A stretch of 64,000 nt of DNA from NCBI GenBank assembly GCA_013299045.1, contig JAAFJX010000007.1, positions 1 through 64,000 on the forward strand. The letters run 5' to 3'. The notes under the pieces were generated by a model. The model had not been told where the DNA came from and searched no databases. It was given only the letters and a program-made list of their open reading frames with translations. The number at the start of each line of letters is the position of its first letter. Positions within the stretch are counted from its first letter, which is position 1. Both the position numbers and the translations under genes were made by a program. Positions 112 through 63,038 of the stretch are shown piece by piece. Origin of the DNA: Cytophagales bacterium. Its GTDB lineage: Bacteria; Bacteroidota; Bacteroidia; Cytophagales; Bernardetiaceae.

Positions 112-184
112 GGGTTAGGGTTTAATTTACTGGTAATAAACATCTTAGATACACTTTCAGGAAAGACTGCTTAGTCGTCCCTTA
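112..184. mobile_element. Degenerate ends of the GTCGTCCC miniature element
   Basis: Positions 121-173 resemble the right end of the 465 bp element found whole at 33960-34426: the shared TTTAATTTACTG, then ATAAA, then a decayed AAGG..GACT terminus. Immediately after it, 171-184 read TTAGTCGTCCCTTA, the opposite-end terminal repeat. The last codons and stop of the minus-strand membrane protein fall inside this second end. Confidence 0.5.
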
Positions 185-10066: not shown

Positions 10067-10528
10067 TAGTTGTCCCTTAAAAAGTATATAAAACATTTAT
10101 TATCAGTAAATTAACTAAAATTTTTAGCTTTAAAATATCTTAGTTTTTAGCCTATTTTGTCGAATAACTGGCAAAACCTCAACGCTTCTTGCGGCCTGCC
10201 ATGCCTCGCATCAGACAAAAGCGAATAGCTCAAATGTCAGAGGGTGAGATTTTTTGTGCTACTATGTTTGGCAAGAGAGTGAATCAAAAAAAGCCATTCG
10301 CTGGTTTAGATGAAAAGTTATTTTTCATCTAAATTGGCCTTTTGCGAGGCTTGATTTTTTTGCTATGCCCTACGGTCGGAACTTTCAGCTCGCGCTTCAG
10401 TTCTGCATCAAGGCAAAAAGTAGAGAAGAGAAGTCTATCAAAGGCCGCCAAGGTGTTCCCAAAATAGGTAAACTATCCTCCTTAAATTTAGCTTACATCT
10501 ATTGAATGTACTTTTTAAGGGACGACTA
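10067..10528 (-). mobile_element. Miniature inverted-repeat element, family 1, copy A (full length)
   Basis: 462 bp including flanking TA on both sides. Ends are GTTGTCCCTTAAAA and TTTTTAAGGGACGAC, imperfect inverted repeats. It matches copy D (33960-34426) along its whole length in the opposite orientation, including an internal palindrome GATGAAAAGTTATTTTTCATC (about 10309-10330) and the segments GGTCGGAACTTTCAGC and GTCTGATGCGAGGC. No transposase is encoded. TA target duplication plus this size suggests a MITE moved by an IS630/Tc1-mariner-type transposase encoded elsewhere (inference). Confidence 0.8.
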
Positions 10529-16083: not shown

Positions 16084-16705
16084 TAGTCGTCCTTTAAAAT
16101 ATATCTAAAGTATAACTTATTAAAACCGTCCTTTACGCAGAATTGCGGGGTTTTTTTGAACGAAAGCAAGCTCTTACATTAACCTCTCTTGAGTCGTCAA
16201 AAAGCCTTTTTGAGTTTTGTGAGTTCTAATTGCCCTCTTTTCACTTTTGCAGATACCCTTTTCCCGCGTTTTCAAATAGCTTTTTGCCAAATGCCTTATG
16301 TCTGGCCTTTTTAGTATTTCTTCTTTTTCTACAATTCTATTCGGGCGTTCCCGCTTCGCGGTCGTTCGTCTTTGGGCTTCGCTTCGGTGCTACGCACTAA
16401 ACCCGCCGCCTCACTAACGCAAGATACAGGCCAATTTAGATGAAAAATAACTTTTTTCATCTAAACCAGCGAATGGCTTTTTCTTTGATTCACTCTCTTA
16501 CAAAACATAGCAGCACAAGAAATCTCACCCTCTGACATTTGAGCCATTCGCTTTTGTCTGATGCGAGGCATGGCAGGCCGCAAGAAGCATTGAGGTTTTG
16601 CCAGTTATTTGACAAAATGGGCTAAAAACTAAGATATTTTAAAGATAAAGTGCTTGTTTAATTTACTGATAATAAATGCCTTATATATTTTTTAAGGAAC
16701 GACTA
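16084..16705 (+). mobile_element. Chimeric miniature element, copy B
   Basis: 622 bp flanked by TA. It opens TAGTCGTCCTTTAAAA and closes AAGGAACGACTA. From about 16432 to the end it matches the right half of family 1 (CAATTTAGATGAAAAATAAC palindrome, TTGATTCACTCTC, GTCTGATGCGAGGC). Its left half is instead a family 2 repeat (16118-16438). So one module was swapped or one element inserted in another. No coding capacity. Confidence 0.75.
16118..16438 (+). repeat. Family 2 GC-rich hairpin repeat, copy 1
   Basis: About 320 bp from TTATTAAAACCGTCC to ACAGGCCAA, matched in reverse orientation at 56217-56533. The core at about 16344-16425 is GC rich in an AT-rich setting and holds nested small hairpins: CCGC-TTC-GCGG, GTGC-TAC-GCAC and GAAGC-type arms. 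This resembles REP-type structured repeats. No reading frame. Confidence 0.75.
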
Positions 16706-16766
16706 GGTAAACTATTCTCCTCCATTTGGCTTAAATATATTGAAAATGCTTTTTAAGAGGCTACTA
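16706..16766 (-). mobile_element. Solo end of family 1 element
   Basis: A degraded copy of the 60 bp end seen at 10466-10528 (GGTAAACTAT.CTCC, then GCTTAAAT/GCTTACAT, then CTTTTTAAG.G..ACTA). It abuts copy B directly and ends 2 bp before the stop codon of the acyltransferase gene. Confidence 0.6.
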
Positions 16767-27304: not shown

Positions 27305-28001
27305 CGGAGTAGATTTGTTTCATCGTAATTGAGGGCTGTTGGTGTAGGTTAGTTGGCAAGTGTTTATATAAAATTTAGCAGATTAGAATGCCAAAAGCAG
27401 TTTTTCAACTTTTAAAAACTAAACGCATAATCTTTCGGCGAAATATAAACAATATTTTATCCAAAAAATAATTTTGTTCGCCTCTATGGTCATTTTTACA
27501 TAAAATATCCTATACAATCTTTATAAAGCAAAATTTTATTTCGCAAAATAGTCTAATAGGAGTATTAATATTTAGGGCGCAGATAGGCATTTGAGGTTTT
27601 CTCTAGATGCGTTACAGTGCCCGGCTGAAAAGACAAGTAAAAGCGCGTAATTTTTTGTAACTTAGATTCAACAGATAAAATGCAACGTTTTGCATGGTGG
27701 AATAAAGAAACAAATACCTCTGACATTTGAGGCATTCGCTTTTGTCTGATGCGAGGCAGTACAGGCCGCAAGAAGCCCTTGAGATTTTGCCAGTTAGTTG
27801 ATAAAATAGGCTAAAAACTAATATCTTTTAAAGATGAAGTGTCCGTTTAATTTACTGATAATAAATATATTAGGCATATTTTAAGGGACGACTAAATATA
27901 TCTTTAAGAACGACTATATAGATTCAGAGACAAAAGAATAGACCTGACTGACTGTTGCAAAGAAAACAGTAGGATAGAGAATGGCTCTGATTAATAGCGT
28001 C
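27305..28001. other. Gene-free region with fused mobile-element ends
   Basis: About 700 bp. The first 350 bp (AT rich) should carry the promoter of the PorP/SprF gene, though no clean TAnnTTTG box was seen. 27661-27717 is an IS30 end, 27718-27894 a family 1 right half, and 27895-27917 a repeated terminal motif. The rest shows nothing recognisable. Confidence 0.6.
27661..27917 (+). mobile_element. Fusion of an IS30 end with a truncated family 1 element (copy C)
   Basis: 27661-27717 begins CTTAGATTCAACAGATAAAA and matches the first ~55 bp of IS30 derivative 2. At 27718 the sequence switches to family 1 (CTCTGACATTTGA, GTCTGATGCGAGGC, TTTAATTTACTGATAATAAA) and ends TTTTAAGGGACGACTA at 27894. 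A second, degenerate terminus (TCTTTAAGAACGACTA) follows at 27902-27917. Confidence 0.75.
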
Positions 28002-33671: not shown

Positions 33672-33959
33672 TATTGATTCAATGAGTTAGTTAGGCAGGA
33701 CTGATTTTGAGAGGTGCAAATCATTTATAAACGCTCCCTTTTACGAAATTAAGCCCTATATTGTTTGCAAAAAACGCGATATGCGTACTTTTTATTTCTA
33801 AAGTACATTGGGGCGCACAAAATTAGGACACAAGACCCATAAATGCAAGCCTCTAGATAAGACAAATAGGGGTTGAGTATTAAAAAACAAGGCTGTCCTA
33901 AATGTTTCTCTACGAAATGCGTCCAGCTATCAAAACCTTTGTTATTGTTTATTCCTAAC

Positions 33960-34426
33960 TAGTCGTCCCTTAAAAAGTACATTCAATAGATGTAAGCTAA
34001 ATTTAAGGAGGATAGCTTGCCTATTTTGGGAACACTTTAACGGCCTTTGATAGACTTTTCTTCTCTACTTTTTGCCTTGATGCAGAACTGAAGCGCGAGC
34101 TGAAAGTTCCGACCGTAGGGCATAGCAAAAAAATCAAGCCTCGCAAAAGGCCAATTTAGATGAAAAAACAAGCTTTTTCATCTAAACCAGCGAATGGCTT
34201 TTTCTTTGATTCACTCTCTTGCAAAACATAGTTGCGCAGAAAATCTCACCGTCTGACCTTTGAGCCATTCGCTTTTGTCTGATGCGAGGCAGTGCAGGCC
34301 GTAAGAAGCCCTTGCGGTTTTGCCAGTTTTTGACAAAATAGGCTAAAATGTAAGATATTTTGAAGATGAAGTGCTTGTTTAATTTACTGACAATAAATAC
34401 TTTAGATTTATTTTAAGGGACGACTA
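33960..34426 (+). mobile_element. Miniature inverted-repeat element, family 1, copy D (full length)
   Basis: 467 bp with TA at each edge. It starts TAGTCGTCCCTTAAAA and ends ATTTTAAGGGACGACTA, giving a near-perfect 13-16 bp terminal inverted repeat. An internal palindrome GATGAAAAAACAAGCTTTTTCATC lies at about 34158-34181 (arms GATGAAAAA and TTTTTCATC). Reads colinear with the reverse complement of copy A. No open frame of note. Taken here as the reference copy. Confidence 0.82.
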
Positions 34427-34547
34427 ACTCGTTTTTTAAACTTTAACGCAGTCTAACTCTGTTGTGCTTTGTTCACCCTATTCAAATCATCTTACCGAAT
34501 GGTATAGGATATGGTGTTCCGAAAATCAATCTTAAACTACTTTAATT

Positions 34548-55754: not shown

Positions 55755-55899
55755 CTACTAGGTTTTGGTTGAAAAATAAATATAAGTAAGCTAAATCGGA
55801 TAATTTTTAACTATTCATCTTTCAAAAACATCATAAGGCGCTTTTTATCAAGTTAAACAAGTGCTTTGTTTTTAAAACCTAAGAGCTATCAAAGACAAA

Positions 55900-55957
55900 A
55901 CACCTGTTTAATTTCTTGGGAATAACTATTTTAGATACATTTTTAGGAACGACTCTT
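55900..55957 (+). mobile_element. Decayed right end of family 1
   Basis: CACCTGTTTAATTTCTTGGG, AATAACTATTTTAG and TTTTTAGGAACGACT follow the order of the copy D right end (TTGTTTAATTTACTG, AATAAATACTTTAG, TTTTAAGGGACGACT). Left part is missing. Confidence 0.55.
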
Positions 55958-56095
55958 AAACTTACTCATGGTTAATGCTTTAAACATATCTTAGAAACAA
56001 CCTCTTAATTAACCTCTCAGAGAGATGTAAGTTTTAGGAAGCGAATAATTGTACTTTTCTAAGATAGAGGTTTTACTTTTAAAGTACGGCCAACT

Positions 56096-56146
56096 ACGGC
56101 TATGATACGGCTATCATACGGCTATGATACGGCTATCCTATGGCTG
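56096..56146. repeat. 11 bp tandem repeat
   Basis: Four and a half copies of TACGGCTATGA with the last two bases alternating (GA, CA, GA, CC) and a final TATGGCT. Perfectly phased; not a multiple of three. No spacer, so not CRISPR. Confidence 0.85.
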
Positions 56147-56169
56147 AACCAAAATAGGACAAAAGGTAT

Positions 56170-56200
56170 AAAGCGGCCTTGCCGCTTTATCTTTTTTTTG
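56170..56200 (+). terminator. Terminator-like hairpin
   Basis: AAAGCGGC, loop CTT, GCCGCTTT (a perfect 8 bp stem) followed by ATC and eight T. A classical rho-independent form, on the plus strand, about 415 bp after the nearest plus-strand stop, so it may belong to the repeat cluster and not to that gene. Confidence 0.7.
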
Positions 56201-56216
56201 TTATTGAGTACGTCTA

Positions 56217-56533
56217 TTGGCCTATATTTGCGTTAGAGAGGCGGCGGGTTTAGTGCGTAGCACCGAAGCGAAGCGAAGCCCAAAGACGAACGACCGCGAA
56301 GCGGGAACGCCCAATAAATTGTAGAAAAACAATCATTAGTCAAAAAGTTAGATATAAGGAATTTGACAAACAGTTATTTGAAAACGCGAGAAAATGGCCT
56401 CTACAAGGGACAAAAGAGGGCAATTAGAACTTAAAAAACTCAAAAAGGGCTTTTTGACGACTCAAGAGAGGTTAATTTAAGAGGTTGCTTTCGTTAAGAA
56501 CCCCCGCAACTCTGCGGAAAGGACGGTTTTAAT
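56217..56533 (-). repeat. Family 2 GC-rich hairpin repeat, copy 2
   Basis: Reverse-complement match to 16118-16438 over its whole length, best in the core (GCGGGTTTAGTGCGTAGCAC, then GACGAACGACCGCGAAGCGG) and at the GACGACTCAAGAGAGGTTAA segment. Small indels, for example an extra GAAGC unit here. Ends 12 bp before the mazG stop. Confidence 0.75.
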
Positions 56534-56545
56534 AAACCACAAGCA

Positions 56546-57352
56546 TTATTCGTTTTTGGCTTCCTGCCAATATGCTTCCATCTCATCTAAACTCATATCA
56601 GTTAGCACTTTGCCTTCTTTTTGGGCTGCACGTTCCATGTATCGAAAGCGCTTGATAAATTTCTTATTCGTGCGTTCAAGCGCATTTTCTGGATTGATAT
56701 TGATAAAACGGGCATAGTTGATAAGAGAAAAAAGCAAATCGCCAAACTCAGCCTCGGCCTCGTCGGAAGGAGGGAGTTCAGAAAAATTTATATCGTATTT
56801 TTCTTTGAACTCGGCCATTTCTTCCTCTACTTTCAGCCATACTTGTCGTTTATCAGTCCAGTCAAAACCCACGCCACGGGCTTTTTCTTGAAGGCGTATA
56901 GCCTTAACGAGTGCGGGCATGGTTTTAGGTACACCGTCCAGAACGCTTTTTTCTCCTACGTTGCCCTTCTCTGCTAATTTGATGGCCTCCCAGTTCTTAA
57001 CAACCGTTTCGCTATCCTTAGCTTCTACGCTTCCGTAAATGTGCGGGTGGCGGCGTATGAGCTTATCACAAAGTGCGTCAATGACATCAGCCATATCAAA
57101 CTGGCCTTGTTCGTCTGCAATTTTGGCATAAAAAACGAGATGGAGGAGCACGTCGCCCAGCTCCTTTTTGATGTTCTCAAAGTCTCGCTCCTGTAGTGCG
57201 TCCAGTAATTCATAGGTTTCCTCCACAGTAAGATAGCGCAAACTCTCAAGGGTTTGCTTTTTGTCCCATGGGCACTTTTCGCGTAGTTCGTTCATTATTT
57301 GAAGCAACTTGCTGAAAGCGAGGCCGTATTTGGGGTTGTTTGTATCAATCAT
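56546..57352 (-). CDS. mazG: Nucleoside triphosphate pyrophosphohydrolase MazG
   Basis: 268 residues, the two-domain form. First MazG domain: CPWDKKQTLESLRYLTVEETYEL (about 35-57; EExxE metal motif) with KKELGDVLLHLVFYAKIADE (ExxD). Second: KVEEEMAEFKEKYD and AEAEFGDLLFSLINYARF. It hydrolyses NTPs/dNTPs to monophosphates and pyrophosphate, moderating the stringent response or cleaning oxidised nucleotides. Cytosolic, complete. Confidence 0.95.
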   Translation of the reverse strand: MIDTNNPKYGLAFSKLLQIMNELREKCPWDKKQTLESLRYLTVEETYELLDALQERDFENIKKELGDVLLHLVFYAKIADEQGQFDMADVIDALCDKLIRRHPHIYGSVEAKDSETVVKNWEAIKLAEKGNVGEKSVLDGVPKTMPALVKAIRLQEKARGVGFDWTDKRQVWLKVEEEMAEFKEKYDINFSELPPSDEAEAEFGDLLFSLINYARFININPENALERTNKKFIKRFRYMERAAQKEGKVLTDMSLDEMEAYWQEAKNE

Positions 57353-57594: not shown

Positions 57595-57718
57595 TAGTCC
57601 TTTTATATACCTTGATACATCTAAAATAGATTCTCTACTCGTATGCACACAAGAGGCAAGCTATTCTCCTTAAATTTAGCTTACATCTATCGAATATACT
57701 TTTTAAGAGAAGGACTAC
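57595..57718 (-). mobile_element. Short deletion derivative of the family 1 element
   Basis: 124 bp. Left edge TAGTCCTTTTATATAC and right edge AAGAGAAGGACTA give a TAGTCCTT/AAGGACTA terminal repeat, with TA at each side. Positions 57655-57718 match the family 1 left end (reverse orientation: CTATTCTCCTTAAATTTAGC, then TTACATCTATCGAATA). The interior is deleted. Confidence 0.6.
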
Positions 57719-57855
57719 ATAAAAAGGAGATTGAAAAGATTATCAAAGGAAAGTTTGATGAGATACCAAATAAAATGATTGACAACGGCATTATGTATCA
57801 CGAAGATTATCATAAAAAAGCATTCAAAACATATATTGTCCAAGAAGATAGCTAA
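57719..57855 (+). pseudogene. Possible 3' fragment of a gene cut by the short element
   Basis: Downstream of the element an open frame gives about 44 lysine-rich residues (HKKEIEKIIKGKFDEIPNKM to TYIVQEDS) ending at 57855. Only the frame's first part, from 57643, is element sequence. The residues look like a helical C-terminus of a real protein, but no family is recognised and it may be chance. Confidence 0.3.
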
Positions 57856-62476: not shown

Positions 62477-62623
62477 ATGGCAGGTAATCCTAAAGAAGAG
62501 CTTATAACATTGTTTAAACCTATTTTAGTATGGATTGTCAGTTGTTTGATTGTCCTTGAATATACATCTAAAATTTTCATTATCATCAAGTTAAAGAAGA
62601 ATTTTATCTTTAAAACCTCTTAG
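62477..62623 (+). CDS. Possible small single-helix membrane peptide
   Basis: 48 residues from ATG at 62477: MAGNPKEELITLF, a hydrophobic helix (about 12-37, PILVWIVSCLIVLEY) and a basic tail. No clear ribosome site or family. It could be chance in AT-rich DNA. Confidence 0.3.
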   Translation: MAGNPKEELITLFKPILVWIVSCLIVLEYTSKIFIIIKLKKNFIFKTS

Positions 62624-63038
62624 GTTAGTCTATTTTATAAAAAAATTGGCAAAACATTCAATTTATCCCTAAGACAGACTGGTTATAAGAACTTCAGATT
62701 CATCTGATATGTCTTGCAAAGCCTTTCTAGGGACGAACAATCACTAAAAAACACAGGGGCGCGAATAATCTCAGCATAGAAGATGGAAAATGAAGCAAAA
62801 GAGACGATACCAATTTGAAAATTTACCCAAAGTCATTAGAAAATTCCAACCGACTACACAAAAGTAAGTGCCCACAAGAATATTCCAAAAGCAAAATTCA
62901 AAAATTTACAAAAAAAGAGAAGCATTTTCTGCCAAAACGTGAGTACAGTCCTGACAATTAGTCATCTTTTTTGCACGTTTTTTGCACTCCAAACGAAGCA
63001 AACTGCCATTTTTGCGGCTATATGCAGCGTTTAAGGAC

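Follow-up and report, generated by a model that had tools for sequence, protein, structure and literature searches.

The window (the whole stretch of 64,000 nucleotides from a Cytophagales bacterium analysed here) carries copies of a ~467-bp repeat that is, with a probability of about 90%, a non-autonomous MITE mobilised by an IS5-family transposase of the NF033578 group, acting through ends common to the MITE and that group's insertion sequences and delivering it into TANNTA sites. The sequences display the shared ends, a 6-bp duplication, an empty site, complete insertion sequences and remnants between the same ends. From these we infer the movement of the 467-bp element by an NF033578 transposase, and the cut-and-insert step: the enzyme, an IS5-family DDE transposase (ISGlo4/ISRsp18 group) supplied by another copy, would recognise the inverted terminal repeats of the MITE, GTCGTCCCTTAAAA; and the MITE would enter TANNTA at breaks staggered by 6 bp, which would leave a direct repeat of that length. 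After the burst the copies diverged by mutation, probably also by recombination with each other.

The element and its copies in the window

The two full copies proposed in the initial annotation are present, at 33960-34426 and 10067-10528, with 90% mutual identity over 468 aligned positions. The first, of 467 bp, is terminated by TAGTCGTCCCTTAAAA...TTTTAAGGGACGACTA, perfect 16-bp inverted ends of which the second is the reverse complement of the first; the other copy has a single mismatch in one of its ends. Both the inverted ends and the internal palindrome ascribed to these copies are thus seen, the latter as a core hairpin, TTTAGATGAAAAA...TTTTTCATCTAAA. The element is indeed non-coding: in the consensus no stretch without stops exceeds 65 codons, and the ORFs of 81-118 aa that overlap a few copies include none common to the family. 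The partial copies already listed are real, with limits slightly shifted, and one fragment (62548-62655) is added. Model positions below refer to a profile built from 27 near full-length aligned copies.

33960-34426, forward strand: full MITE copy, in which GTC...GAC, the element itself, spans 33962-34424
33956-33961 and 34425-34430: target copies around it, TAACTA and TAACTC, 5/6 identical
10067-10528, reverse strand: other full MITE copy (90% identity with 33960-34426); the hexamers on its two sides, TATATA and TACTTA, differ, hence no intact target duplication
16084-16705, forward strand: composite element, 622 bp, with two MITE ends
16084-16113: part 1 of the composite, reversed MITE right end
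16117-16435: part 2, piece from the second repeat family (see below)
16428-16705: part 3, MITE positions about 189-467
16704-16766, reverse strand: inverted MITE left-end fragment, positions 1-64, adjoining the composite
27717-27898, forward strand: MITE right part, model positions 300-481; exact end 27881-27894
120-173, forward strand: MITE right-end fragment, model positions 428-481
55873-55956, forward strand: MITE right-end fragment, model positions 395-478
57641-57720, reverse strand: MITE left-end fragment, model positions 6-84
62548-62655, reverse strand: MITE right-end fragment, model positions 367-476; absent from the initial list

Abundance and age of the family

The census rests on searches of the whole genome (G000; 4.06 Mb in 79 contigs, a draft assembly, 99.8% complete) and on an 838-kb sample comprising contigs C9, C61 and C69 entire and most of C20. 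Genome-wide, 282 ends fit TAGTCGTCCCTTAA when no more than one mismatch is allowed, compared with 3 when the pattern is reversed as a control, which excludes chance. On the sample, the MITE profile gave 87 matches, merging into about 66 loci and covering 2.3% of bases; extrapolation puts the genome total at an estimated ~300 MITE loci, well over the 10-20 copies typical of bacterial MITEs (PMC4596501). The description of a heavily colonised genome is therefore apt, with many copies outside the window.

Elsewhere, no MITE was found in the single same-genus genome available (84% complete), nor in the other relatives searched apart from G033, where 27 bp of an end match, and neither MITE DNA in plasmids and phages nor the exact core pattern in viral contigs was found. 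None of these searches yielded a relative of the core; the family is a new one, of an already-known kind of element, whose core matches nothing found here.

Full copies diverge from the consensus by 5.4-10.6%. Any two of them are at most 95.7% identical (median 89.7%), and no recent, near-identical copies were seen among the aligned full copies. With copies 5-11% from the consensus and no near-identical pair, the spread of the MITE looks like an old, finished burst.

The target duplication spans six base pairs

Identical 6-bp flanks occur on both sides of 19 of the 59 distinct end pairs in the window's genome; 500 shuffles gave a mean of 3.25 such matches and a maximum of 10, and duplication lengths of 3-5, 7 and 8 bp yielded zero or one matching pair. 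End pairs from other genomes behave alike (6-bp duplication in 13 of 36). The duplicated hexamers are mostly TANNTA, and in those that are not (TTATTA, TATTGA, TATCTG) the departure is repeated on both sides, which makes the outer TA part of the target and not of the element. TA does lie directly outside both ends in nearly every copy, as first reported; it is not the complete target site, however, but the inner part of the 6-bp TANNTA duplication. Only about one third of MITE copies keep a perfect duplication, and in the window it is decayed at 33960-34426 (TAACTA/TAACTC) and absent at 10067-10528.

One copy (C9:166031-166464) is inserted in a member of the second repeat family, with TAGATA on each side. 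Another member of that family, at C9:121844-121997, retains the empty site: GACGTAC-TAGATA-ACAAAA runs unbroken, with one copy of the target. Neither the MITE end sequence nor a description of the TANNTA duplication was found in the mobile-DNA literature searched.

Complete IS5-family insertion sequences have the same ends

A pattern search for the exact 16-bp end across 390 genomes of the same order found it in only 7. The order is taken as Cytophagales because parts of such genomes are identical to named Raineya and Cytophagaceae records. In one of the 7 (G033) two such ends enclose an element of 1458 bp that has a single transposase ORF and is flanked by TACTTA at either end. The MITE matches this complete element at 23/24 bp on the left and 38/48 bp on the right; homology is confined to these terminal stretches (~24 bp left, ~48 bp right), and the MITE core (about 60-420) is unrelated to the insertion sequence. 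The transposase scores 473 bits against NCBIfam NF033578 (cut-off 275), which identifies it as an IS5-family DDE enzyme, and contains the Pfam domains DUF772 and DDE_Tnp_1. A second genome, from the same family (G008), encodes a 356-bit transposase around which MITE-type ends were not found.

In collections of named genomes, which exclude records of the window's own genome, TAGTCGTCCCTTAAAAAG turned up in at least 102 stretches, almost all of them from Bacteroidota. Several are complete elements of 1.43-1.51 kb with TANNTA duplications; others are small, 84-700 bp, with identical ends. Among complete copies, TANNTA duplications flank L163, L164, L182, L205, L213, L231, L232 and L259. Plasmid relatives include ISGlo4, with ends TAGTCGTCCCTGAA, and an ISRsp18-like element of 1560 bp that begins at GTCG and has GATTTA on both sides, so that complete insertion sequences with MITE ends, 1.43-1.56 kb long, extend across Bacteroidota and plasmids of other phyla. 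That these carry the same 6-bp duplications makes the duplication a property of the NF033578 insertion-sequence group. TAGTCGTCCCTTAAAA can serve as a diagnostic end common to insertion sequences and small derivatives across Bacteroidota.

MITE-sized elements that share these ends, 205-422 bp long, also occur in other Bacteroidota: L138 and L160 (Bacteroidetes GWA2_32_17), L171, L178, L158 and L123. At most of them TANNTA is perfectly duplicated; the IS5-type NF033578 group seems repeatedly to yield small derivatives of this kind. Outside that phylum, IS5-family elements on a Leptospira interrogans plasmid (L261) and on Campylobacterota plasmids (L258, L259) have nearly the MITE ends (TAGTCGYCCCTGAAAAA or close to it), which suggests that such ends are ancient or have been exchanged widely.

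Transposase remnants in the window's own genome

No intact NF033578 transposase was found in the window's genome: the best match scores 45.6 bits against the cut-off of 275, in a 79-contig draft that may lack copies of an active insertion sequence if these are repeated and identical. A near full-length relative used as query detected 14 transposase fragments there; a degraded 167-aa fragment used likewise gave no match. Many of the fragments sit between or beside MITE-type ends, in elements of about 350-500 bp. Several of these apparently have one deletion junction, at which a piece from around residues 51-92 meets the MNKWKASF region of the C-terminus, and a junction in common suggests multiplication after gene loss; we read them as a second small family, produced by internal deletion and then multiplied. 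The remnant-bearing small elements with the same ends (~350-500 bp if complete) are L243, L241, L256, L254, L251, L252, L247 and L249.

The remnants between the same ends probably mark the past source of transposase for the MITE, and the mobility we claim is past, not present; the enzyme's putative identity is deduced from these fragments and from relatives, no intact transposase of the group having been seen in the genome itself. The remnants would illustrate a MITE family outliving its enzyme, and the genome can be read as a natural archive of a transposition burst that has ended.

Two others of the genome's DDE_Tnp_1 transposase genes were considered as partners and rejected. Three copies, >99% identical, of a 1.16-kb element (L106, L107 and L108, about 881-2044) hold a 152-aa ORF of a truncated IS5-type transposase; MITE ends are absent from their shared region, and they represent a distinct element of more recent date. 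The other gene, intact and coding for a DDE transposase of 500 aa, occurs nearly identically in L103 (C69:15602-17626) and L102; the C69 element is an insertion that interrupts a MITE copy.

Surroundings of the copies

None of the 66 merged loci of the 838-kb sample lies inside an ORF of at least 100 aa. Of 62 classifiable loci, 25 (40%) lie between converging genes, compared with 101 of 600 gene pairs (17%); free TANNTA sites fall in converging gaps at 6%, a background biased by exclusion of MITE-bearing gaps, for which reason 17% is the fairer comparison. In the window, the copy at 10067-10528 is between converging genes and that at 33960-34426 between diverging genes, its right neighbour being a glycosyltransferase gene. 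The simplest reading of the intergenic and converging bias is selection against insertion near promoters.

Both MITE strands are predicted to fold more strongly than shuffled sequence (z -6.0 and -5.4), as their nested palindromes would lead one to expect. Among the 92 pairs predicted, a compensatory change is seen in just one. Single-copy changes are roughly half to two thirds as frequent in the core as in the ends, in paired and unpaired columns alike; this difference may stem from constraint or composition, from noise in the alignment, or from conversion among the copies. Co-option of the core as a host transcription terminator or insulator between converging genes would account at once for the strong fold, the lower core variation and the surplus between gene tails, but we think it unlikely: promoter-avoiding selection and composition or mutation bias account for these more simply.

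Alternative explanations

The initial annotation had the MITE moved by an IS630/Tc1-mariner transposase with duplication of TA, an assignment in keeping with the TA outside nearly all ends and with the two IS630-type (DDE_3) remnants that the genome carries. It was not borne out, and we now consider it highly improbable. The duplication covers six bases and tolerates non-TA borders (TATCTG, TATTGA, TTATTA; GATTTA in ISRsp18), the empty site holds a single TAGATA, and the enzyme of the insertion sequences with MITE ends is IS5-family NF033578. Nor does either remnant supply the MITE ends that the annotation expected of an IS630-like partner: one is bounded by TTAAACCGA...TCGGTTTAA and is itself inserted into an element with MITE-type ends, the other is a broken gene adjoined by a MITE copy; no IS630-type element with GTCGTCCC ends was found in the window's genome, these two being the only IS630-type remnants found there. 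The likely mobiliser thus becomes IS5 in place of IS630, and TANNTA replaces TA as the duplication.

That the repeats are instead a dispersed structured RNA or host regulatory element, and not mobile, would fit the folding of both strands, the less variable core and the enrichment between converging genes. It leaves aside the mobile-element ends, which elsewhere flank transposase genes, the 6-bp target duplications and the empty site; identity as a structured RNA was rejected, with no Rfam match within the window and compensation in only that one pair, and the reading as a whole is very unlikely. Also very unlikely is a family of large segmental or recombination-derived repeats that mimics mobility. 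Some copies do have flanks in common (L005, L011, L019), and the lack of a matching duplication at most copies is what recombination between copies would leave; the flanks of most copies, however, are unrelated and meet the element precisely at its inverted ends, 6-bp duplications match about six times as often as in the shuffles, and the empty site is exact. Such an origin is likely for individual copies, though contradicted for the family as a whole.

Relation to known elements

Mobilisation of the MITE by an NF033578 transposase would provide a likely source for this high-copy orphan repeat. The end of ISGlo4 is one base off the MITE end, whereas insertion-sequence copies in Bacteroidota match it exactly. 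Insertion sequences of the group make 6-bp TANNTA-like duplications, as does the MITE, but encode a transposase of ~440 aa within their 1.43-1.56 kb where the MITE has an unrelated 0.35-kb core between its ends.

The Correia elements of Neisseria are IS5-linked MITEs, and they duplicate TA. Like the Neisseria ATR, they are short and intergenic with IS5-type ends, as is the present family, but differ from it in sequence. IS630/Tc1-mariner MITEs also have TA at their ends; the present family has a 6-bp TANNTA and an IS5-family partner. For the ATR, the proposed parent is the IS5-family ISNme1 (PMC4596501). MITE239, MITE464/PgRS, MITE700 and BrickBuilt of Porphyromonas gingivalis, at roughly 10-20 copies per genome, have IS5-family ends (PMC4596501); these too are Bacteroidota MITEs with the ends of IS5-family insertion sequences, but the ends are others (GAGACC..., ACGTC...), the BrickBuilt duplications are irregular and the copies far fewer than here.

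A second repeat family

A second intergenic repeat, of about 550 bp, is bounded by CAACCTCTTAATTAACCTCTC / GAGAGGTTAATTTAAGAGGTTG as inverted ends and contains a stretch of GGCTTCGCTTCGG/CCGCTTCGCGG. It gave 22 matches in the 838 kb, and its copies include:

55999-56546 of the window: second repeat
16117-16435 of the window: second repeat, partial
C9:44422-44976, C20:103348-103903 and others: second repeat, outside the window

Some MITE copies enclose a copy of it, at one or other of two points, and so form longer composite elements.
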